Source: Oscillospiraceae bacterium | Lineage (GTDB): Bacteria > Bacillota > Clostridia > Oscillospirales > Acutalibacteraceae | Direction of reading: 5' to 3' | Length of the DNA: 64,000 nucleotides | Assembly (NCBI GenBank): GCA_022508805.1 | Contig: JAFLUM010000002.1 | Span: forward strand, 1 to 64,000 | In this document: positions 20,754 through 31,387 of the stretch, piece after piece | Layout: each line of letters opens with the position of its first letter | Numbering within the stretch: position 1 is the stretch's first letter | Notes under the pieces: generated by a model | The model's database searches: none | The model's input: only the letters and a program-made list of their open reading frames with translations | What the model was told of the DNA's origin: nothing | Position numbers and translations under genes: made by a program

Positions 20754-20783
20754 TTGACATATTATTCATAGTAATGTTACAAT
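20754..20783 (+). promoter_or_regulatory. Promoter of the giant surface protein operon
   Basis: TTGACA (20754-20759) and TACAAT (20778-20783) are 18 bp apart, with TG one base before the -10 as an extended element. The start codon of the first gene is about 47 nt downstream. Confidence 0.8.
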
Positions 20784-20830
20784 ATATACAAATATATTGC
20801 TATAAATTCAATATGAAAATCGGTGAAAAA

Positions 20831-21340
20831 ATGAAGAAAAAACGATTTATATGCATAGCGGCATGTGCGGTGATTTTAATCGTTGTTTTGCTGTTAGTAA
20901 TCTGCCTAAAATGTCCGAAAAGGTACGCACTAAACCTGTATGATGAGAATGTGCATTATACCAGAGGAATAGAGGCTTTTTATGATATAAACGGTGAGTT
21001 GAAAAGTTTTGAAGTTTATATCATTTATGACGACAATTTGCTGGGAATTTCGGTCGGGCGAAACGATTCGGAGACGAAATATCCGGATGCGATGTCAACC
21101 TGTGTCATAAACGATGACGGCAGTGTGAAAATATCGAATTATCTCACATCAAAATCCATTGAAGCCGGCGCGCTTGATGATAAGGACTTTTTTATGGCAA
21201 GCTCCATATATGAGAAAGTTAAAACAGAAGACGATATCAAAGTTTTTTTGGAAGATCAACTAGAACGTGCCAAAGAAAGCAATATTCCTGACGACGGAAT
21301 AAACTATATTATAATAAACAATAAAAATGCGAAATGGTAA
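20831..21340 (+). CDS. Small membrane-anchored extracytoplasmic protein, unknown function
   Basis: This protein of about 169 residues has a basic start (KKKRF), one hydrophobic segment (about 6-27) and an exported domain. A CLKCP motif after the hydrophobic segment could be a weak lipobox, but a signal anchor is as likely. The domain alternates strands and acidic turns (YDINGELKSFEVYIIYDDNL) and recalls no family I can name. GGTGA lies before the ATG. It is the first gene of the unit with the giant surface protein, 25 nt before that gene, and an accessory role in its secretion or attachment is plausible but unproven. Confidence 0.7.
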   Translation: MKKKRFICIAACAVILIVVLLLVICLKCPKRYALNLYDENVHYTRGIEAFYDINGELKSFEVYIIYDDNLLGISVGRNDSETKYPDAMSTCVINDDGSVKISNYLTSKSIEAGALDDKDFFMASSIYEKVKTEDDIKVFLEDQLERAKESNIPDDGINYIIINNKNAKW

Positions 21341-21365
21341 AATAAGTACTGGGAGGAATATTCAC

Positions 21366-24300
21366 ATGAAAACCGGAAAAATAAAAGTTAAAATACTCTT
21401 AGGTTTTGTTTTGACATTGCTCACGGTAATGTTTTTGACAACAAACGCCTATGCGGCAGACATCGAATACGATACAAGCGATAGAGTATATTTGTCAGAC
21501 ATATCTTATGTGACAGATATGTCATACATAGAAAACGGAAACAGTTTCCATTTTGATACAGATGCGTCAAATAAAGCCATATCTTTAAAATATGAAGATG
21601 AGGTGAAAATCTTCCAAAAGGGAATTTCTGCATGGGCTACATCTAACCTGGTGTATGACCTGAGTGACTATTCTTATGATAAATTCACCGCATATATCGG
21701 AGTAAGTGCCAATCAGACCAGCGACTATGCCAATGACGGCGCAGTTATTACGGTCTATACTTCTGTTGACGGTGAAAACTGGACAGTTGCTTATAAAAGC
21801 GGGGCAAAAAAAGGTTTTTTGAATTCCGACCATGTTGAAGTTTCTGTTAAAGGTGCCAAATATCTCAGACTGTATGCTTATTGTAACGGTGCAAACTGGT
21901 GGAGTCCTTGGTATGATGATGTTTTATACGCAGATGCAAAACTGGTAAAAGACGGATTCGTTGAAAATAATGAGCCGAACGATCTTATCCATACGCTGGA
22001 CTGGTATGATAAATATTTACGTCAGCACGATTCCAACGATGCAAACTATGAGAATTATCTCTTGCAGAGAGAGCTTGTGAAGAATGTCGGTTACGATGCT
22101 TTGCAGTCTTTTCTGAAATTTAACCCCAAGAGCATCGGCACAGGCGTGAAATGGCTGTTTGAGGACAAAGAAGCCCTTTCCTATTACATTATGGGCGGAG
22201 TACCGGACGGCACATACAGGCGTTCTTTTGAGGTGATGTCTGATCTGCTTCACAAATATAAATCTGATATGGATATTAAGGATGTGACGGAAAACGGCGT
22301 TGTGCTGGGAGATCTTTACAAAAGAATGATCGTCACACTGTCACTTACTCATTCTGCTCCGGTAGGCACATGGATCACAGGTGCACCGCAGGATCCCAAT
22401 CATCCCAACGGCTCAAATGCGGTAAACAGGTATTTCATCTACCGCAAAATGCATAAAAAGGACTTGTTGGAGAACAAGATATTCGAAAATCTGACCGTGG
22501 AAGAAATGCGCATGGTCATGAACAACATCATTTCTGATGAAGAGATAGAATGGTTGAACTATTACAGCAAAACCAAGGGTAAAGGGGCAATGAACCCCTA
22601 TTCGTACATTGACTATTCCTTTGGCTACAATTATCAGGAAGAACAGTATTATGATCCTGCCTTGAAGGATCATTGGACTGAGCTTTATAATCTTGACGGA
22701 AAGCAGTGGGGAGAAGACTGGGATCTTACATTCACTCCTACCTATGGATATACTAAGCTTTGGATCGTTTTTGAAGAGAACTCCGTTTGCGGCGGCATTG
22801 CAAAAACTGGCGTTAGTTTACAGGTGGCTTACGGCGTTCCGGCTTCGGTAGTAGGTCAACCGGGTCATGCTGCATACATTTATATGTCGCTGAATTCAAA
22901 GGGCGAAAAAGAGTGGGTTTTAGGTAACGACGTCAGCGGCTGGGCACAGAGTGGAAGAACAGAAAAGCTCAGCATTCGCTTGCCTCTTGGTTGGGGCACC
23001 GATAAGGCCTCCAGCGGCTATGTAGTCAGCTATTTCCCGTTGATTCAAGCTGCTTTTGATGATTATGAGGGTTATAAGCAGGCAGAAGAATACATTATGC
23101 TTGCAAATGTATATAAAGATGATTTTGCCACTGCTGAAAGCTATTACAGAAAAGCAATCAAGGCACAAGCGTTCCATTTTAAAGCATGGGTCGGTCTTAT
23201 TGATTTATATAAAGCCTACGATAAGCCAGATTCGGATTTTGTTAATTTAATATCAGAATTTGTTCCGATTTTCACCTATTATCCATTACCTATGGATAAT
23301 CTGCTAAATTACGCCGGTCAGTACATTAAATCAGAAGGCAACACATTCTATCTTTATTCCATTAGAACTAATGCTTTACTCGCTGCAAAAAATGCGACAG
23401 CAGAAAATAGCAGACAGCCAAACATTACCAAAGCAGTAGCAAGATATCTTGCAGGTGATGTGGAAAAGGGCATTGTTGAATTTACTTTTGACGGATATGT
23501 TAATACTCCCACGGGCGTTGTGGCCCGTAAAGATGAAAACGGTCAGCTTTACGCAGGTTACATTTTACTTGCTGAGAAATTCAAAGGTAACGAAATTTAT
23601 TGGCAGTATATGATCAACGGCAGAGACTGGAAGGATGCTTCGGGCATTGCACATAAATTGACCGATGCAGAGCTTGCTACAATCAGTGCCGAGACGGGTG
23701 TTAAGGTGCGAATCCTCGGCGCTTTGGACATAGTATATACCGTAGATATTACCACGGGAACATTGCCCAATATTTACGGTAACGATTTGGAAAACACAAT
23801 TTTCGGCATCGACAGTACAGCCATTGATTATTGGAACTTTGAAACAGGTCAGTGGGAGAACGCCTTATTCGGACTGTACTTTGACTGGGACACCTTTGAG
23901 ATGCGTGAGCCTATTTTTAAAGGAAATCAGACAGTTTATTTCAGACGTGCCGCTACTATGACCACAACGGCCAGCGACGTTCTTGAGGTTGTCTTCACTC
24001 AGGATAATACAGATCCTAATCACAGCTATATTACCAGAAATCATCTCAAGGTTCACGACTATCCTTCTATGGATCCCGATGCAACCTTCGATCAGGCAAT
24101 CAACGGCGATATAGGAAACTTCTGGCGCACAAAGACTGCGGAAACCAATGTTTCTCGGCGCTATTTCACAATTGCATTGGATGCTCCCGTTTATCTTTCC
24201 GCATTGCAGTATGTTCCGAGACAAAGCGGTGTCTCGGGTATTGTGACAAACGCTAAAATTCAGGTAAGTATGGACGGTAGCACCTGGACGACAGTTGTTG

Positions 24301-27300
24301 CCTCCACCAACTGGGAAGAAAACGCGCAGGCAAAATATGTAGAATTTGAAAAGCCTGTACAGGCAAAATATGTGAAAATTATCGGTACGGAAACTTCTGA
24401 TGACTATATGTCCGCCGCCCTTATCAATCTGTTCGAGGACACAACAGCGGCCATACCACCTAAAGGCACAGTGGAATACAGCACAACCACTCTTACCAAT
24501 CAGAATGTAACTGCTATCCTGCATACAGACAAATATGTTGAAATAAAAGACGAAAAGGTAACTAAGCAGCCTGACGGCACATTCACCTATGAGTTTGATT
24601 CGAACAGAAGCTATACCTTTGAGTTTACAGACGCATTCGGCAATAAAGGAACGGCTGAAGCCAAGGTTGAATGGATTGACAAAGATCCGCCTAAGGCAAC
24701 GGTTGAATACAGTACTAAGGATCCCACATCCGGTTCTGTTATCGCTACGCTGAAGTGCGAAGAACCAATTACAATTACAAATAACGACGGTCGTGACACC
24801 TATACCTTTAGCACGAACGGAAGCTTCACCTTCAAATATAAGGATGCTGCCGGAAACGAAGCTGAGACTGAAGCCTCGGTTAACTGGATTCAGACAGAAG
24901 CACCTAATATTTCGCTTAAATACGATATAGAGCAGCCTACCAATCAACCGGTTACGGTAACGGTAGTCAGCGACACGAAATTTGAGATTACGAGCAACGA
25001 TAAGTCGGAATCTCATACGTTTGATGATAACGGCGAGTGGACATTTGTCTATAAGGCAGGCGCATACACCGGTTCACTTACAGCAAGAGTAACCTGGATT
25101 GATAAGGAACCGCCGAAAGTCAGCGTTGAATACAGCGCAGATACGAATAAACCGACTAACCAGCCCATTATAGCTACATTGATCAGTAACGAGCCTATTA
25201 TCATAGAGGGTTTAGAGCCGAATGACGACGGGCATTATTATCACACGTTTACCAAAAACGGAGATTTTGTATTCGCATACCGTGATCTTGCAGGCAATAC
25301 GGGCAAAGTGACGGCTGCGGTTTCATGTATCGATACAACTCCGCCGGAGGCTAACGTCGTTTACAGCAAGACTACGCTGACTAATGAGTCTGTCATAGCA
25401 ACTCTTGTCAGTGAAGAGGATATTACGATCATCAGCAATAACGGCAGTAGCGTTAGACTTTTCGATAAAAACGGTTCTTTTGAATTTGTTTACACAGATG
25501 AGGCCGGAAACGTAGGCCGTACCACTGCGCAGGTAACTTGGATCGACAAACAAGCTCCGATCGGAAGAATACAGTACAGCCGAACGGAGTCCGGCGCAGG
25601 TCCTGTTGTTGCAACGCTTGTATGCGATAATGAACCGATTATTGTCACCAACAATGACGGAAAGCCGACTTATACGTTCTATAAAAACGGTCGATTTGAG
25701 TTTATTTACAGAGATGAAGCAGGAAATGTCGCAACAATCTACGCAGAGGTAAGCTGGATCACCGATCAGACCGCATGGGTAGAGTACAGTACGACTGATA
25801 TGACCAATACGGATGTTACCGCTACCCTGTGCAGCGACGCTGACATCGTCGTAAAAGAGCTTGAAGGCGTAGAACAGGATGAGTCAGGTAATTATTACCA
25901 TACCTTTACTCAAAACGGAGACTTCACATTCGTATATACCGATCAGTCCGGCGAGGAAGAGAGCGTCACGGCAAGTGTTAACTGGATCGACCGTGATCTG
26001 CCCAAGTTTGAGGTTCAATACGATCATGCCCCGAATATTCCTACCAACCAGTCTGTTACCGTAACGCTGGTAAGCGATGAAGACATTATGATGGTAAGCG
26101 ATTTCAGCAACAGCGTTTACGGCAGAGTATTCACCTATGTATTTGATAAAAATGATGTTCTCACGCTGATTTATCATGACAGAGCAGGAAACAGCGGAGT
26201 TTATGAGTTGGCAGTTAGTTGGATCGATAAAGATTCGCCTATCGGCAGTATTATTTACAGCAGTACAGAGCCCGGTCCCGGTCCTGTTACTGCAACGTTG
26301 ACCGCAAATGAGGATATCACTATTGACAACAACGGCGGAAGTGACGAGTTTACATTCAATTACAACGGCACGTTTGAGTTCCAGTACCATGACAAAGCTG
26401 GCAACACAGGCAGCACAGTTGCGGATGTTTACTGGATAACGCCCCGTGAAGAGGACCACCCCCCTGTCATTACCATTGAAAAGGATAATTTCTATTTTGA
26501 TTTGTGTACCGATTTACCGGTCGATCTTTCGTACTTTATCAATTTGATAACTATTACGGATGATAAAGATATAATTGATATCAATAACACAAAGCAAGTA
26601 CAGATTGACTCTGATTTCAAATGGGAAAAAGGTACTTATACCATAACCGTTACCGTAACGGATTCCGGCGAAAACACAGCTACTTTGGTAATCAATATTA
26701 TAGTCGATGATACAAGCGTTGATTTTGGGGCATTGAGTTTTGAGCTTGCTGGCGATAAATTCGTTTATAACGGTTACCAGCACTTGCCGACAGTAACGGT
26801 CAGGAACAACAGCGAGATATTGGTATTGGGAACTGACTATACAGCTACCTATACAAACAATATCAATGCAGGCGAAGCAACTGTGTTGCTAACAGGATTC
26901 GGGCGTTATAAAGGCTATAAAACGCTTACTTTCACAATTGAAAAAGCACAGCCTGCACCTGAAGCCTTCCCTGGGGATATAATCGAAGTTTCATATGATA
27001 TTGATATTGCTGAAAAGGTACTTCTCCCTGTCGGTTGGACATGGAAAGATCCAAACAAAGCATTGACAGTGGGAGAAAACAGCTTACAAGCGGTTTATAT
27101 TGTGGATGACAACTATGAAACGCTGGAGAAGACCGTTACCGTTAAAAGATTGGAAGATATCATTCCGAACCAGCCTCCTGTTATCACGCTCAAACAGTCA
27201 GAATTTATATTTGACAGAAGAGTATCTTACGGAATTGATATTTTTGCCTATCTGAAGGATTTTGTTACTGTTGAAGATGACCGTGACGGCATTATCGACC

Positions 27301-28688
27301 CGAATGACGAGGAGCATGTTGAATTTTCCATTGATTCGGAATTTGACTGGGCAGTCGGAGAATATACCGTGACTGTTACGGCGAAGGATTCTTCTAAAGC
27401 AATAAGCAGTGCAGAGATTAAGATTAATATTGTGGATTCCACCGTTTACATCGAGGCACTATCAGTCGAACTAGAGACGGATGAGGTCGTGTTCAACGGT
27501 AATCCGCAAGCTCCTGCTGTTACGGTAAAGAACGGCGACGTAGTACTGACCGAAGGAGAACACTATAATTTAGTGTACGACAATAACGTAAATGTGGGTC
27601 AGGCAAGCGTAACGGTGATCGGATTAGGCGTTTACTCCGGTTCAAGGACACTTACCTTTACGATTCGTGAGCCTATGGTTTCAGTTGTACCTGACGGTGA
27701 CGGCAGTGTGACTCAGGGTGCAAATATAGTCTTCCACGATTCTACGGACAATGTAGTTTACGGTCAAACCCTCACCTTTGAGGTTAACGTTAAGCCCGGT
27801 TACCGCCTTGTCAGCGTCAATGTTAACGGTGAAGAGCTGTATGAAAACAACGGCATTTATGAAATTACCGTTACTGACGATTTGCAGATTGCAGTAAAAA
27901 CCGAGCTTATTAAGTACACGGTAAAATGTGTCGACATAAAACGAGGAAATGTATTTGAGGATATGACCGTTGATGTAGAATCTAACGAAGTTATTATCAA
28001 CGGCACTGAAATGACTGTCTCACTGAGCACGTTTGATATAACGGATGAATATTTCGATTTTGTCGGCTGGGTATCTGAAGAATGTAATGTTTCAGAGGAC
28101 AACAAAACGATTGCAGTCGATTTGACCTCCTCTGAAACCGTCATTTCATTGACTGCACAATGGAAAATTAATCGTGAGGCTCTGGAGAAACTATTGATGA
28201 GCGTTTCACTTGTTCCCGAATACATTCTTAACGATAACGGTACATACACAATGGTGCTGACACTCAACTGGAACTGTAATTCGGATCTTAAAGAAATCTA
28301 TGGAGAAGAGTTGGAGAACGCCGAGCTTCTTGCAACCGGTTTTACATACGCAAGAGTTAATTTCCAAATCGATGATCTGAAAGATGAGATTAAGGGTCTT
28401 GATTATTCAATGAATTTCACAGATCCATACAAGTGGTTGACAGCAGCTTCGACGGATGAATCCAGAAAGAATGACCTTTATTTCTACTATTGCGTATGGG
28501 GAGAAGCTTATAGGCGCTTTAGCGTTATTTCTGACGGTAAAGCCACTTTCCAGATGAGCAACATAAAAGCCGATGCTAAGAGATATGCCTCAATCTTCTT
28601 GAGCCTGAAAATAGATGGTGAGGTATATGTCATCACAGGCAAGAATTATACCTTTGGTATGCAGGAGGTTCAAGAGAGTACGGTATGA
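21366..28688 (+). CDS. Giant secreted multidomain protein (transglutaminase-like, discoidin-like, Ig-like repeats)
   Basis: This protein of about 2,440 residues starts with a signal peptide cleaved after TTNAYA (about 29). Domains in order: an NPCBM-like carbohydrate-binding region (about 50-200); a transglutaminase-like region with a Cys-His-Asp triad (C475 in VCGGIAKTG, H501 in QPGHAAYIY, D522 in GNDVSGW); a TPR-like stretch (about 565-635); a discoidin/F5-8C-like domain (about 915-1030); nine Ig-like repeats of about 70-75 residues ending in WIDKxxP (about 1035-1692); two long alternating HYR/MBG-like units; and an InlB-like repeat region. I see no LPXTG anchor, dockerin or S-layer motif. 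GGGAGG precedes the ATG at 21366. It is likely an adhesin or wall-linked binding protein. Confidence 0.85.
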   Translation: MKTGKIKVKILLGFVLTLLTVMFLTTNAYAADIEYDTSDRVYLSDISYVTDMSYIENGNSFHFDTDASNKAISLKYEDEVKIFQKGISAWATSNLVYDLSDYSYDKFTAYIGVSANQTSDYANDGAVITVYTSVDGENWTVAYKSGAKKGFLNSDHVEVSVKGAKYLRLYAYCNGANWWSPWYDDVLYADAKLVKDGFVENNEPNDLIHTLDWYDKYLRQHDSNDANYENYLLQRELVKNVGYDALQSFLKFNPKSIGTGVKWLFEDKEALSYYIMGGVPDGTYRRSFEVMSDLLHKYKSDMDIKDVTENGVVLGDLYKRMIVTLSLTHSAPVGTWITGAPQDPNHPNGSNAVNRYFIYRKMHKKDLLENKIFENLTVEEMRMVMNNIISDEEIEWLNYYSKTKGKGAMNPYSYIDYSFGYNYQEEQYYDPALKDHWTELYNLDGKQWGEDWDLTFTPTYGYTKLWIVFEENSVCGGIAKTGVSLQVAYGVPASVVGQPGHAAYIYMSLNSKGEKEWVLGNDVSGWAQSGRTEKLSIRLPLGWGTDKASSGYVVSYFPLIQAAFDDYEGYKQAEEYIMLANVYKDDFATAESYYRKAIKAQAFHFKAWVGLIDLYKAYDKPDSDFVNLISEFVPIFTYYPLPMDNLLNYAGQYIKSEGNTFYLYSIRTNALLAAKNATAENSRQPNITKAVARYLAGDVEKGIVEFTFDGYVNTPTGVVARKDENGQLYAGYILLAEKFKGNEIYWQYMINGRDWKDASGIAHKLTDAELATISAETGVKVRILGALDIVYTVDITTGTLPNIYGNDLENTIFGIDSTAIDYWNFETGQWENALFGLYFDWDTFEMREPIFKGNQTVYFRRAATMTTTASDVLEVVFTQDNTDPNHSYITRNHLKVHDYPSMDPDATFDQAINGDIGNFWRTKTAETNVSRRYFTIALDAPVYLSALQYVPRQSGVSGIVTNAKIQVSMDGSTWTTVVASTNWEENAQAKYVEFEKPVQAKYVKIIGTETSDDYMSAALINLFEDTTAAIPPKGTVEYSTTTLTNQNVTAILHTDKYVEIKDEKVTKQPDGTFTYEFDSNRSYTFEFTDAFGNKGTAEAKVEWIDKDPPKATVEYSTKDPTSGSVIATLKCEEPITITNNDGRDTYTFSTNGSFTFKYKDAAGNEAETEASVNWIQTEAPNISLKYDIEQPTNQPVTVTVVSDTKFEITSNDKSESHTFDDNGEWTFVYKAGAYTGSLTARVTWIDKEPPKVSVEYSADTNKPTNQPIIATLISNEPIIIEGLEPNDDGHYYHTFTKNGDFVFAYRDLAGNTGKVTAAVSCIDTTPPEANVVYSKTTLTNESVIATLVSEEDITIISNNGSSVRLFDKNGSFEFVYTDEAGNVGRTTAQVTWIDKQAPIGRIQYSRTESGAGPVVATLVCDNEPIIVTNNDGKPTYTFYKNGRFEFIYRDEAGNVATIYAEVSWITDQTAWVEYSTTDMTNTDVTATLCSDADIVVKELEGVEQDESGNYYHTFTQNGDFTFVYTDQSGEEESVTASVNWIDRDLPKFEVQYDHAPNIPTNQSVTVTLVSDEDIMMVSDFSNSVYGRVFTYVFDKNDVLTLIYHDRAGNSGVYELAVSWIDKDSPIGSIIYSSTEPGPGPVTATLTANEDITIDNNGGSDEFTFNYNGTFEFQYHDKAGNTGSTVADVYWITPREEDHPPVITIEKDNFYFDLCTDLPVDLSYFINLITITDDKDIIDINNTKQVQIDSDFKWEKGTYTITVTVTDSGENTATLVINIIVDDTSVDFGALSFELAGDKFVYNGYQHLPTVTVRNNSEILVLGTDYTATYTNNINAGEATVLLTGFGRYKGYKTLTFTIEKAQPAPEAFPGDIIEVSYDIDIAEKVLLPVGWTWKDPNKALTVGENSLQAVYIVDDNYETLEKTVTVKRLEDIIPNQPPVITLKQSEFIFDRRVSYGIDIFAYLKDFVTVEDDRDGIIDPNDEEHVEFSIDSEFDWAVGEYTVTVTAKDSSKAISSAEIKINIVDSTVYIEALSVELETDEVVFNGNPQAPAVTVKNGDVVLTEGEHYNLVYDNNVNVGQASVTVIGLGVYSGSRTLTFTIREPMVSVVPDGDGSVTQGANIVFHDSTDNVVYGQTLTFEVNVKPGYRLVSVNVNGEELYENNGIYEITVTDDLQIAVKTELIKYTVKCVDIKRGNVFEDMTVDVESNEVIINGTEMTVSLSTFDITDEYFDFVGWVSEECNVSEDNKTIAVDLTSSETVISLTAQWKINREALEKLLMSVSLVPEYILNDNGTYTMVLTLNWNCNSDLKEIYGEELENAELLATGFTYARVNFQIDDLKDEIKGLDYSMNFTDPYKWLTAASTDESRKNDLYFYYCVWGEAYRRFSVISDGKATFQMSNIKADAKRYASIFLSLKIDGEVYVITGKNYTFGMQEVQESTV

Positions 28689-29212
28689 GAAAAAAAGTTA
28701 TACTTTTTACAGGACTCTCGGTCGCCTTTGCTGTTATCATATTGATTTTTGTCTGTAATGCTGCTCTGCAAAAAGACCCGATCAACAAATTTAAAAAATA
28801 CTTAGAGCAGAATAATTATTCCTGCTCTAAGTATACCTGCACAATGCAGAGCGAACGGGTAGAAGACGATATAACCGAAACATATTCGGAAATATATCAG
28901 TTTAAAGAGCACACATTTACAGCCATATGGATACATTATGACAGTTCAAACACAGCTACTTGGCAAATGGAGTTTATTTACAATTATGCGGATGATACCG
29001 TTACTATGAATCGGTATGAAACAGCAGACTCCCTCAAAGCGCAGGAGCCGGATACGGTTTACCATATGAATAATGAAGAAATGCTGGAATGTGAAAAGGG
29101 AGATTTGATCGCTTCTGAATCTGAGTTGTATAATCAAATGCTCAGTTTTAAGAATGTTTTTGCTGGGCATCTTGAAGAAGCAGATATAAACATACAGGAC
29201 ATAACACTATAA
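28685..29212 (+). CDS. Small membrane-anchored extracytoplasmic protein, unknown function
   Basis: This 175-residue protein has a basic start (RKK), one hydrophobic segment (about 5-25) and an exported acidic domain with strand-like patterns (FTAIWIHYDSS, WQMEFIYNYADD). Its size and layout resemble the first small protein of this unit, but direct homology is not obvious. The ATG overlaps the stop of the giant gene by 4 nt, so it is translationally coupled to it. A strong terminator follows. I recognise no family; a partner of the giant protein is the simplest guess. Confidence 0.7.
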   Translation: MRKKVILFTGLSVAFAVIILIFVCNAALQKDPINKFKKYLEQNNYSCSKYTCTMQSERVEDDITETYSEIYQFKEHTFTAIWIHYDSSNTATWQMEFIYNYADDTVTMNRYETADSLKAQEPDTVYHMNNEEMLECEKGDLIASESELYNQMLSFKNVFAGHLEEADINIQDITL

Positions 29213-29214
29213 AG

Positions 29215-29257
29215 AAAAACGTCTCTAAAGCACATAGAACTTTAGAGACGTTTTTTT
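29215..29257 (+). terminator. Terminator of the giant surface protein operon
   Basis: A perfect 16-bp stem (29215-29230 with 29240-29255) around a 9-nt loop ends in seven T residues at 29251-29257. Confidence 0.93.
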
Positions 29258-29327
29258 GAAAAAATATATTTATGATATGGAATAGCATCGTTCTTATCCA
29301 CAGAATCCCTGCTCGAAGCGGGAACAA

Positions 29328-29603
29328 TCAGGTTGTTACATCATTCAGTGCCCCAATGCTCTTTAGTTTTTCTATCACAGTATGAACATCACTTGTTACT
29401 ACCTCACGGGAAACATTGTACTCTTCCAAAAGTCTTTCTACGACAGCCTCCTCAGTAGTTTCATTTTTTAAGCAATCTACGATAAATGCAGCAGTTTCAT
29501 TAGATCGGACTAATCCATGAAAATGCTTTGCCGCTTCCCCTGCCGCTACCATCATTTGTGTATCTTGAATTTGATGGGTGATAAATCCATCTTTCAGCTT
29601 CAT
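29328..29603 (-). CDS. PqqD-family peptide-recognition protein
   Basis: This 91-residue protein has the layout of RiPP recognition elements of the PqqD type: an N-terminal strand region (KLKDGFITHQIQDTQMMVA), then a helical part with ETAAFIVDCLKNETTEEAV and a closing winged-helix stretch. Such proteins bind the leader of a precursor peptide and present it to a radical SAM maturase. It sits 14 nt after the maturase gene and has a strong AAGGAGG site. The ATG at 29603 is preferred over a longer reading. It is the last gene of the cluster. Confidence 0.85.
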   Translation of the reverse strand: MKLKDGFITHQIQDTQMMVAAGEAAKHFHGLVRSNETAAFIVDCLKNETTEEAVVERLLEEYNVSREVVTSDVHTVIEKLKSIGALNDVTT

Positions 29604-29617
29604 AGTTTTCCTCCTTA

Positions 29618-30979
29618 TCAGCAGTTCTCCGGCGACAGATAGTCTTGCCATTCAACCGTATTTTTGCTTGTGTAGATATAGTACTCGTTTAGTATTTGCG
29701 AACGCAGTCGTTTTTCCATCATCTCACGCTCGATTTCAGTGCATGTTCGCCCTCCCGGACACTTTTTTAATCGGTAACATTGAGGGTAATACGAACAATC
29801 AAAGCACTCCTGCCCTGCCGGTGTTCGCTCTTTCCAACCGACAAGCATATCATAGTCACGTTCTTCGCTGTTGATATCCCCATATATTTCGCTATCAAGA
29901 AAGTGTTCGCAGCATCCAAGCTTCCCGTCCGGTAACACCACTACAGCGCCGTCATTATTCGCTATGCACTGCGTTACTTTAATGCTGCGGGCCAAACGCC
30001 CATCGCCGTATAATTCTAATTGAATGAGCCGATCCCGAACTTTCCGAAATTTATCTGCAAGCGATGAACTATGTGTTAAAACCCATTTAGATTCATCATT
30101 TATTTTATCATGCAAGGGACTTGGATAAACAAAAAAACCTTTTTGCCCTTTAAACCGCTCAGCCAACTGATCTGCTAAGCGGAGCAAGTCTTGCCAATTT
30201 TCTTCGCCAACATTCAGACGAATTGATACATTGATGCCTGAATTTTGCAGTAATTCAATATTGTTTAAGACACGTTGAAACGGGCTTCCGTCAGGGCACA
30301 AAAACGCTTTCGTACGGTTGTAAACCTCTTCTGTGCCGTCAAGCGTAATTTGGGCTTTTTCAAGATGCCAAATGTCTTTAGCTTTTTGAATAGTTGGTTT
30401 ATCAAACAGATACCCATTACTTGCTATGGATGAACAGTATCGGACACCTGCATTTGTTAACTCTTGGCAAATGGTGTCAATAGCTTCTTGATTGGCAAGC
30501 GGTTCCCCACCAAACCAATGCAACTGAGCTTTTTTGTCTCCGATGTGTTCTGTAATATACTGAGCCAGACGGCTGGCGGTATCTTTGCTCATATTTTTTC
30601 GAACACACCCCTGCTCAAAGCAGTAATAGCAGCGGGCATTGCAGTTCGTAGTAGTTAATATTGTGTAATGGTTAATATAATCTACCGGCTTTTGCACATG
30701 AACAGCGATATCATGTAAGTGATCTGCCAATGCGTAGTCATCCTGCTCTTTTGGAACTAAAAACCACTTGGAAATCAACTCTTCATTTTCCGTTAAACTA
30801 TTCATTTCACTTGTGGAAAGCAAAAGTAACTCTAAGGTTAAGGGATTATAAATAAGCGTTCCGTCTTCCACAGGGCATTGAATACAAAAACGCAGCAATC
30901 GGTAATTTAAACCTGCCTGCCTTCTTTGCTTGCCGAGAATCCTCGTTACCAATTCTGCGGCCGGAACAATCGTTTTCAT
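29618..30979 (-). CDS. Radical SAM/SPASM peptide maturase
   Basis: This protein of about 453 residues has an N-terminal region of about 105 residues, then the radical SAM core with the cluster motif CNARCYYC (C-x3-C-x2-C, about 113-120) and WFGGEPL. A C-terminal SPASM-type region carries further Cys (LGCCEHF, CFDCSYYPQCYRLKKCPGG) for auxiliary iron-sulfur clusters. The layout matches enzymes that install thioether or carbon-carbon crosslinks in ribosomal peptides. It lies between a small Cys-rich precursor gene and a PqqD-like gene on the same strand. The ATG at 30979 has GGAG 6 nt upstream. The exact crosslink cannot be read from sequence. Confidence 0.88.
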   Translation of the reverse strand: MKTIVPAAELVTRILGKQRRQAGLNYRLLRFCIQCPVEDGTLIYNPLTLELLLLSTSEMNSLTENEELISKWFLVPKEQDDYALADHLHDIAVHVQKPVDYINHYTILTTTNCNARCYYCFEQGCVRKNMSKDTASRLAQYITEHIGDKKAQLHWFGGEPLANQEAIDTICQELTNAGVRYCSSIASNGYLFDKPTIQKAKDIWHLEKAQITLDGTEEVYNRTKAFLCPDGSPFQRVLNNIELLQNSGINVSIRLNVGEENWQDLLRLADQLAERFKGQKGFFVYPSPLHDKINDESKWVLTHSSSLADKFRKVRDRLIQLELYGDGRLARSIKVTQCIANNDGAVVVLPDGKLGCCEHFLDSEIYGDINSEERDYDMLVGWKERTPAGQECFDCSYYPQCYRLKKCPGGRTCTEIEREMMEKRLRSQILNEYYIYTSKNTVEWQDYLSPENC

Positions 30980-31003
30980 ACTTGTCTCCATTTCTCATTA
31001 ATT

Positions 31004-31042
31004 AAAAAACACCTGGGATCTGCAAGCATCCAGAGACCCGGG
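31004..31042 (-). terminator. Attenuating hairpin between precursor and maturase genes
   Basis: On the minus strand CCCGGGTCT pairs with AGATCCCAGG (one mismatch, one bulge), with TTTTTT following the 3' arm. It lies about 25 nt before the maturase start. An incomplete terminator here would give more precursor than enzyme, as is usual in RiPP operons. Confidence 0.6.
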
Positions 31043-31112
31043 CATTTTCCGTAAACATATAATTCTTTTAGATATTCGCGTGAAAAGTAAAACGACAGAT
31101 TACCTACAATAC

Positions 31113-31283
31113 TCAATTCCACCAGGAGAAAGAATCCCATGGATCAGTACCCCCGCCATAAGCAAAATTGATAGGACAATCGGGAACATCACAACCACAA
31201 CCGGAACCGGAACTGACCGTTAACATCTCACCATTATTCTCGAATAAATCTATCTCCATTTTGGGAGGCACATACTCTTTCAT
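31113..31283 (-). CDS. Candidate RiPP precursor peptide (Cys-rich, 56 residues)
   Basis: This 56-codon frame has GAGGAAG 7 nt before its ATG and its own strong promoter. The leader-like start MKEYVPPKMEIDLFENN and a GEMLTVSSGSG stretch lead to a core with three Cys (C29, C31, C36) in SGCGCDVPDCP, followed by a Gly-rich turn and an aromatic end (DPWDSFSWWN). The start matches the MK-x-Y-x-x-P style of leaders found with radical SAM maturases. The core contains a C-x3-D pattern (C31 to D35). Two genes on the same strand follow: a radical SAM/SPASM enzyme and a PqqD-like protein. No exporter or protease gene is seen nearby. Being a peptide modified by the cluster is inferred from context. Confidence 0.82.
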   Translation of the reverse strand: MKEYVPPKMEIDLFENNGEMLTVSSGSGCGCDVPDCPINFAYGGGTDPWDSFSWWN

Positions 31284-31315
31284 TTAAAAACTTCCTCATA
31301 ATATAATCTACTAAA

Positions 31316-31344
31316 AGTATATAATATTAGAGTTTTTTTGTCAA
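31316..31344 (-). promoter_or_regulatory. Promoter of the RiPP cluster
   Basis: On the minus strand TTGACA (31339-31344) and TATACT (31316-31321) are 17 bp apart. A small inverted repeat GTGCA-AATG-TGCAC (31345-31358) abuts the -35 box and could be an operator. Confidence 0.85.
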
Positions 31345-31387
31345 GTGCAAATGTGCACAAGTCCAACTTTATAAAATGATTATAAAC

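Follow-up and report, generated by a model that had tools for sequence, protein, structure and literature searches.

A three-gene cassette on the minus strand of a 64,000-nucleotide stretch of DNA from an Oscillospiraceae bacterium (contig JAFLUM010000002.1, positions 1 to 64,000; hereafter the window) probably encodes a ribosomally synthesized and post-translationally modified peptide (RiPP) and a maturase of an undescribed subfamily. The reading favored here, with a probability of roughly 0.55, is that a PqqD-like RiPP recognition element (RRE) binds the leader of the precursor, that a radical S-adenosylmethionine (SAM)/SPASM enzyme introduces a radical crosslink into the core, likely a Cys thioether, and that the product acts at the cell surface or outside it. 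The cassette lies together with the gene for a giant secreted protein in one DNA block that is found in three species, at different chromosomal sites.

The precursor gene and cassette layout

The precursor gene (31113..31283, minus strand) encodes 56 amino acids, in agreement with a preliminary description of the window, which also noted a good ribosome site and the promoter TTGACA-17-TATACT. The ribosome site GAGGAAG precedes the start, and the promoter (31316..31344, minus strand) agrees with the consensus at 11 of 12 positions and lies at the right end of the shared block. The leader, which contains a YVPPKM segment, runs to approximately residue 24 and ends in an 'LTVSS' boundary; the core thereafter carries 3 Cys as well as CDVPD and DPW. 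Orthologues are found in locus L012 (genome G842) and locus L009 (genome G841), with the identical order precursor-maturase-PqqD; both genomes are metagenome-derived and labelled Eubacterium sp., and the relatives as a whole carry the labels Eubacterium sp., Clostridia or Clostridiales where labelled. In these two closest relatives the precursor is neither missing nor interrupted, so the condition under which the preliminary description would have given up the peptide call did not arise. Alignment of the three species recovers the same reading frame and the same -35/-10 hexamers (both identical in L012 and L009), and between the window and L012 the first 14 codons carry 2 synonymous changes and no non-synonymous one. 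Because reading frame, leader and promoter are kept in two other species, the precursor is, on comparative grounds, a real gene.

Past the leader the three cores diverge, retaining C[DNT]VP and DP[F/W] in common. The term 'Cys-rich' used for the peptide in the preliminary description is generous for 3 Cys in 56 residues, with 2 and 1 in the two orthologous cores. DNA identity (including gaps) between the window and L106, the contig of L009, is 0.55 for the precursor, 0.77 for the maturase, 0.81 for the PqqD-like gene and 0.82 for the giant, and 0.61 and 0.48 for two intergenic stretches. A constant leader followed by a fast-changing core is the pattern that a RiPP precursor should show; tested as a RiPP cassette at the level of sequence, the locus has a precursor linked to its modifying enzyme across genomes and a leader that is steadier than the core. 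Searches with the precursor gave chance-level matches in Pfam and NCBIfam and nothing in PADLOC.

The intergenic region between precursor and maturase (30992..31112, minus strand) contains a terminator-like stem followed by a T run in all three species. The arm sequences differ among the species and pairing is retained in the folds; the window stem alone is not unusually stable (z-score -0.57), and the region has no match in Rfam. This stem may be a leaky terminator that limits the enzyme relative to the precursor. It is an addition to the layout given in the earlier description. Further terminator-like stems on the minus strand flank the cassette (31419-31394 and 29255-29215), and among the listed frames inspected between them no exporter, protease or immunity gene was recognised, in agreement with the preliminary description.

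The maturase and its recognition protein

The maturase gene (29618..30991, minus strand) encodes a 457-residue protein with the motif CNARCYYC and further C-terminal cysteines of the SPASM type, and the enzyme family named previously holds (PF04055, 51.5 bits; cut-off 29.5). It is 79% identical to its counterpart in L012 and 74% identical to that in L009. No curated NCBIfam model is matched above cut-off: the best is TIGR04463 'rSAM_vs_C_rich' (127.4 bits; cut-off 525), followed among the models considered by Clo7bot (96.1 bits; cut-off 600), the PapB model NF047865 (81.4 bits; cut-off 340) and the dynobactin model (54 bits, below cut-off), and among the matches listed (25 of 63 families) NF041718, a cyclophane model, does not appear. 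The families with which comparison had been suggested (Clo7bot, ranthipeptides of the PapB type) thus do not accommodate the enzyme, nor does TIGR04463, and the precursor matches no family. Neither the NCBIfam nor the Pfam copy searched contains a model that covers the maturase-precursor subfamily, which is, as judged by profile matches, new there at the subfamily level. Judged from titles and abstract openings, and with most subscription journals aside, the literature searched contained nothing on the maturase family or on radical SAM enzymes in clusters of the linear polyphosphorylated peptide (LPP) type, and the accession TIGR04463 is in no paper of the literature collection searched. The only PADLOC matches of the maturase were to viperin; these are confined to part of the radical SAM core and were judged to be general similarity.

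By profile, the closest proteins of known structure are 5wgg (E 5.6e-19) and then 8vpo (2e-8). A fold search with a model of the maturase likewise places 5why and 5wgg at the top and 8vpo (TigE) next, at TM-scores of 0.54-0.59 over alignments of 445-469 columns for 457 residues, and the N-terminal strands and helices of the model look RRE-like. The structures 5wgg and 5why are those of CteB, a thioether-forming maturase, and by this analogy thioether formation is a first guess at what the enzyme does.

The third gene (29328..29603, minus strand) encodes a discrete 91-residue PqqD-like RRE, starting at an ATG at 29603 behind AAGGAGG, although the listed open frame begins further upstream, at 29651. 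Its earlier assignment as a PqqD-like recognition protein is borne out by PF05402 (51.8 bits; cut-off 23.4). When a profile of 10 RREs was compared with the PDB, leaving out of the ranking designed helical proteins that look like helix artefacts, the lasso RRE TbiB1 came first, aligned along its whole length (positions 1-87, E 4e-7), followed by TfuB1 (6e-5), the 'PqqD family protein' 9x8z (0.002) and the lasso PqqD chaperone 9x90 (0.016). According to the available text of PMC12710340, YxxP is a described lasso motif, and W/Y/LxxP-type recognition is common to lasso peptides, PQQ and the actinobacterial sactipeptide system StsC. Since this type of motif also serves PQQ and StsC, the combination of lasso-type recognition with radical SAM enzymes has a precedent.

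A wider family of maturases and precursors

A profile built from eight maturases gave strong matches in 6 of 394 genomes of the order (387-587 bits) and in 2 of 391 genomes of the class (406-431 bits), the window's own genome aside, and the next matches reached at most 191 bits; the two genome sets are drawn samples that partly overlap. The strong set, taken at a maturase score above about 360 bits, comprises 18 loci (17 above 375 bits and the fragment L014 at 364) and also includes seven loci from genome contigs, two phage-type contigs and the window itself. An adjacent small open reading frame (ORF) with the same type of leader is present in 14 of the 18 loci, giving 15 precursors in all, two of them in L036. 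This is the co-occurrence of precursor and enzyme in related genomes that the preliminary description proposed to look for. In L037 and L014, which are contig-end fragments, the presence of a precursor is not judgeable, and in the phage-type contigs L049 and L050 no precursor was recognised.

The family leader is roughly [Y/F]xxPx[M/V/L]E[I/V]...[D/E][V/I]IxTS, with the core next. A leader pattern was matched by 15 of 156 small frames beside the maturases of 16 loci and by 13 of 1129 frames elsewhere in them; this pattern was written after the precursors had been seen, one of the 15 matches looks like chance, and the precursor of L010 was missed. All 15 cores contain Cys and all contain D or E, and F, W or Y occurs in 10. 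Cys is concentrated in the cores (32 in 346 core residues versus 6 in 346 leader residues), and the chance of finding Cys in every core, calculated as the product of the Cys-holding fractions of background frames from the same loci, is 1.4e-5.

In four clusters (L010:7576-7824, L011:1637-1882, L013:2598-2837 and L015:7574-7810) a second protein of approximately 80 residues with a GG-type leader end is encoded between precursor and RRE, and that of L010 matches the CTB bacteriocin model NF038167 below cut-off. The IMG/VR collection holds 31 maturase-related loci, two of them strong. The contigs L049 (2512-6329) and L050 (4083-6569) from this collection encode maturase relatives with 37% identity in phage-like surroundings: PHROGs, applied only to the phage neighbours of these two, gave tape-measure, tail and endolysin matches in L049 and sigma-factor and SbcC-like matches in L050. 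Neither contig has an RRE match. The maturase follows an 830-residue ORF with a Cys-repeat tail in L049 and a 283-residue Cys-rich ORF in L050.

Proposed mechanism

In the favored reading, the precursor would be made in excess over the enzymes because the conserved terminator-like stem follows it. The PqqD-like RRE would bind the YxxPxM segment of the leader in the manner of lasso and LPP RREs, as homology and motif suggest, and the radical SAM/SPASM enzyme would introduce a radical crosslink into the core, the likeliest type being a thioether that involves the Cys always present there. Cleavage behind the conserved '[T/V]xS' boundary would then remove the leader, and proteins encoded elsewhere would export the putative product. 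Because the cassette shares a block with a giant secreted protein, the peptide probably has its role on the cell surface or beyond it, and may work there together with the giant or in inter-strain competition. That the peptide is the substrate of the maturase, earlier suggested by context, is now better supported by the co-occurrence of precursor and enzyme, and a Cys-based crosslink is the best guess because Cys is found in 15 of 15 cores. With only three genes, the cassette is small enough for direct expression tests.

Several observations weigh against this reading. The whole precursor is approximately as variable as the intergenic DNA of the block (0.48-0.61), with conservation confined to the leader and a few core residues, and its first 14 codons differ between the window and L009 by 6 non-synonymous and 3 synonymous changes. 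The motif [YFWL]xxP near the start is present in 10 of the 15 leaders and absent from 5, and the loci L038, L039 and L042 hold a maturase and a precursor without an RRE found nearby. The distant precursors were selected partly by eye, not blind, on the leader motif and not on Cys. There is no Cys-D/E spacing signal, since 23 of the 32 core Cys have D or E within 5 residues on, compared with a shuffled mean of 19.6 (p 0.14). The structural model of the maturase is moderate (pLDDT 69), with values under 50 in the radical SAM Cys loop (residues 119-129) and across much of the SPASM part. Finally, a leader peptidase and an exporter are absent from the gene list of the block.

The maturase could instead form aromatic C-C crosslinks (three-residue cyclophanes, as in triceptides). 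The three close cores lend this some color, since an aromatic residue is kept after DP (DP[F/W]) and their ends (FGR, FDN and WWN) have the form aromatic-X-(N/R), which is likened to the triceptide motif. Across the family, however, 5 of 15 cores lack F, W and Y and none lacks Cys. Among the profiles, the thioether-forming PapB scores 81 bits versus 54 for dynobactin, and the cyclophane model is not among the matches listed, a weak point given that all of these scores are below cut-off. On this evidence cyclophane formation is rather unlikely, and the thioether remains the preferred chemistry.

Comparison with LPP and other known systems

As described in the available text of Popov et al. 2026 (PMC13381572), the core set of LPP genes consists of an SpI-like peptidase, a discrete RRE, an HprK-like kinase, a nucleotidyltransferase (NTP transferase) and an MsbA-like transporter; the leader consensus is YxxPxVLxHQxIxFETxxS, the distribution is patchy with transfer inferred by the authors, and the word 'radical' has 0 occurrences in the main text. 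The window cassette resembles these systems, as far as that text describes them, in its discrete lasso-type RRE, in a YxxPx[V/M] leader motif near the N-terminus, in a conserved end before a variable core and in its patchy distribution. It differs in the presence of a radical SAM/SPASM maturase and, measured against the published consensus, in a leader that has YxxPxM (YVPPKM) but lacks HQ and FET. A search of the window with LPP queries recovered no SpI-like peptidase, HprK-like kinase, NTP transferase or MsbA-like exporter around the cassette, which is not counted as an LPP member because only RRE and maturase are retained.

Other members of the maturase family have more LPP-like surroundings. 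L036 and L015 hold look-alikes of all five LPP core genes beside the maturase; L010 has an RRE, an HprK-like gene, a weak SpI-like gene and an ATP-binding cassette (ABC) gene; L013, L040 and L043 have an RRE, an HprK-like and an SpI-like gene, with NTP_transf_5 also in L043 and L037; and L042 has an HprK-like gene without an RRE. In the relatives scanned, NTP_transf_5 and ABC are above the Pfam cut-off. The SpI and HprK labels are provisional because they derive from sub-cut-off NCBIfam matches and mutual similarity only, and none of the SpI/HprK candidates scanned in the relatives' clusters received such a label from Pfam. These clusters pair a lasso/LPP recognition module with what may be radical SAM/SPASM chemistry in otherwise LPP-looking gene sets.

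The window's own genome contains further genes of this kind. On contig C1 (L127:7642-10300) an RRE related to that of the window, an HprK-like gene and an ABC gene stand in a row beside a ParA-type ATPase gene that matches Wzz below threshold; this may be a second RiPP locus, LPP-like in kind. On contig C28 (8088-10045; L080) an MsbA-like ABC gene with an open 566-residue frame, 56% identical to that of L036, is followed directly by the first ~90 residues of a second maturase, and the arrangement looks like a decayed cluster. Three SpI-type peptidases are above cut-off in the same genome.

Together these genes could finish and export the peptide in trans, and they give some basis to an alternative in which the cassette is a stripped-down LPP-like system, its product mainly phosphorylated or glycosylated, with kinase, peptidase, NTP transferase and MsbA-like exporter supplied from elsewhere. 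The complete gene sets of L036 and L015 and the subsets in other relatives favor this, as do the C1 row, the C28 gene and the peptidases of the own genome. Against it stand the lack of any LPP accessory gene within the block and the sub-cut-off nature of the relatives' SpI/HprK labels. Moreover, the C28 exporter type is absent from the other two carriers (best identity in G841 and G842 33-35%), whose HprK-like genes lie among housekeeping-looking genes, and the nearest same-genus homologues of the C28 gene (G021 and G004) also lie among such genes. The C28 gene as an exporter in trans is a possibility, and an LPP-like product as a whole seems unlikely.

Lasso systems with a discrete B1 protein (TbiB1, 5v1u/5v1v; TfuB1, 6jx3) share the RRE family and the YxxP-type leader motif with the cassette but not the radical SAM enzyme, and the window gene list, inspected by eye with no profile search made, gave no B2 peptidase or macrolactam cyclase. 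CteB-type (SCIFF) and PapB maturases share the SPASM enzyme and the Cys in the core; PapB differs in score (81 bits versus the required 340), and the cassette has a discrete RRE and no repeated CX3D of the kind that the available text of PMC9413430 gives for PapA.

The shared block and its giant secreted protein

The preliminary description had presented a compact three-gene cluster. The genes are where it placed them, but the unit shared between species extends to approximately position 20754 and takes in the operon of the giant. The whole block (20754..31352, 10.6 kb, not assigned to one strand) consists of two convergent operons and has 80-83.5% DNA identity to blocks in two other species. 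BLASTN of L106 against the window yields a single block (window 20754-31351, 80% identity); L012 and L105, a longer stretch from the same genome, match up to window position 31352 (82.5 and 83.5%) and stop on the other side at the end of the stored sequence or contig. Two genomes thus show the right edge, and one shows the left.

At the left edge, a TTGACA...TACAAT-like promoter for the plus-strand operon was noted by eye. The first gene (ORF A; 20813..21340, plus strand) encodes 175 residues with an N-terminal hydrophobic segment, is kept in L106 (DNA identity 0.81 without gaps) and has no Pfam match. The giant (21327..28688, plus strand) is 2453 residues long, with a signal-peptide-like N-terminus and NPCBM and F5/8 type C domains; it is 83-85% identical in G841 and G842, and in G841 it is an uninterrupted frame of 2433 residues. 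The start of the last gene (28685..29212, plus strand), which encodes another 175-residue protein with an N-terminal hydrophobic segment and is convergent with the cassette, overlaps the stop of the giant, and this gene is kept beside L009 and L012. Among 59 relatives (the own genome, 35 of the same genus and 23 others), the giant was matched at E ≤ 1e-60 in the own genome only. The second 175-residue protein was matched at E ≤ 0.001 in four, one being the own genome and the other three giving weak, partial matches (30-32% identity) within far longer frames. Residues ~488-535 of the giant (window 22788-22931) contain a Cys-His-Asp-like pattern (CGGIAKTG, PGHAAYIY, ND) conserved between the window and L106, which hints at a transglutaminase or cysteine-protease-like domain; no such domain is claimed, as the AlphaFold2 model from two sequences was too poor (pLDDT 37).

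Large proteins also accompany the cassette elsewhere. Seven distant clusters, all with the precursor gene preceding that of the maturase, carry a long ORF whose end lies 21-106 bases ahead of the precursor; in L036 a 209-residue ORF intervenes. Two of these long ORFs are complete (939 and 1756 residues), and the other five remain open up to where the contig or stored stretch ends (322-1912 residues visible). A C-terminal domain of ~300 residues taken from four distant long ORFs matches L036 (E 3e-26) and, weakly, L040 (1e-6) and L042 (2e-4), with no match to the window giant; it is common to the otherwise different long ORFs of L036, L038, L039, L041 and L043. The long ORFs of L036, L039 and L043 gave sub-threshold Pfam matches only. 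The four loci in which the precursor follows the maturase (L010, L011, L013 and L015) lack this layout.

The association of a peptide cassette with a large extracellular protein thus appears, from gene order and sequence, to recur with unrelated giants, though these genomes may simply be rich in giant ORFs. Because it recurs, in convergent orientation in the window and on the same strand in the seven distant clusters, it can be suggested, tentatively, that modified peptide and giant extracellular protein form one functional unit, the peptide serving as ligand, cap, substrate or regulator, in a pairing that would have arisen at least twice. The repeated link offers a testable idea of where such peptides act.

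The same neighborhood admits a reading in which the substrate of the maturase is not the small ORF but the giant or some other secreted protein. A giant does stand beside the cassette in all three carriers, long ORFs end near the precursor in the seven distant clusters, and the two phage-type maturases follow Cys-repeat ORFs with no precursor recognised; yet a small ORF whose leader fits the RRE accompanies 14 of the 18 strong loci, and the window giant has no detectable sequence in common with the distant long ORFs, which makes this reading very unlikely. The PQQ and mycofactocin systems likewise combine a radical SAM/SPASM enzyme and an RRE. A peptide-derived cofactor made by the same minimal set (precursor, SPASM enzyme and PqqD-like RRE) is the least probable alternative of all, for it would require a constant core, yet even the three closest loci differ in the length and sequence of their cores, and no partner oxidoreductase was recognised in the block.

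Insertion site and horizontal transfer

The block of the window sits between cwlD and tsf. The tsf site was inspected in eight genomes (six of the same genus, G841 and G842): in four of the six same-genus genomes (G021, G034, G007 and G012) the site is empty, with cwlD adjoining tsf (a gap of 134 bases in G021 versus ~11 kb in the window), G001 and G002 carry a different gene at this position, and in G841 and G842 no cwlD was found at tsf. The neighbors outside the block, named by eye, differ as well: tsf in the window, a hisF-like gene at L009 and a 332-residue secreted-looking ORF at L012. Maturase matches at E ≤ 1e-10 occur in 6 of 147 relatives, of which only those in the own genome and in G129 (40% identity) appear to be orthologues; the remaining same-genus genomes among the 147 gave no match.

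Protein identity between the window and G841/G842 is 44-49% for tsf and 77-79% for rpsB, compared with maturase and giant values of 74-79% and 83-85%, respectively; the block-free genome G021 is closer to the window (tsf 84%, rpsB 87-91%). Synonymous divergence (dS) between the window and the carriers is 0.5-1.1 for four block genes and 1.4-2.9 for tsf and rpsB, the only two host genes compared, with sites near saturation, and identity at fourfold sites is 0.55-0.56 for the maturase, 0.53-0.58 for the PqqD-like gene and 0.60-0.69 for the giant. Given the different sites, the empty sites and the similarity of the giant, the block was likely gained horizontally, for which synonymous divergence may be taken as moderate support. 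Two points weigh on the other side. The fourfold-site identities of maturase and PqqD-like gene are no higher than that of tsf (0.57-0.59), though above that of rpsB (0.47-0.48), and the carriers are not exceptionally distant, because the same-genus genomes G007 and G012 are as far from the window in tsf (~48-50%) as G841 and G842. The distribution may alternatively reflect loss from a block-bearing ancestor. No integrase was recognised in the block, and at E ≤ 1e-20 the maturase had one partial match in the plasmid collection (27.6% identity) and none in the phage collection. Empty and filled sites constitute natural plus/minus pairs. At the edge of the G841 contig (L106:1-60), where ARAGORN called no tRNA and where a tRNA would be cut by the contig edge, a sequence resembling the 3' end of a tRNA lies approximately 100 bases before the beginning of the block.

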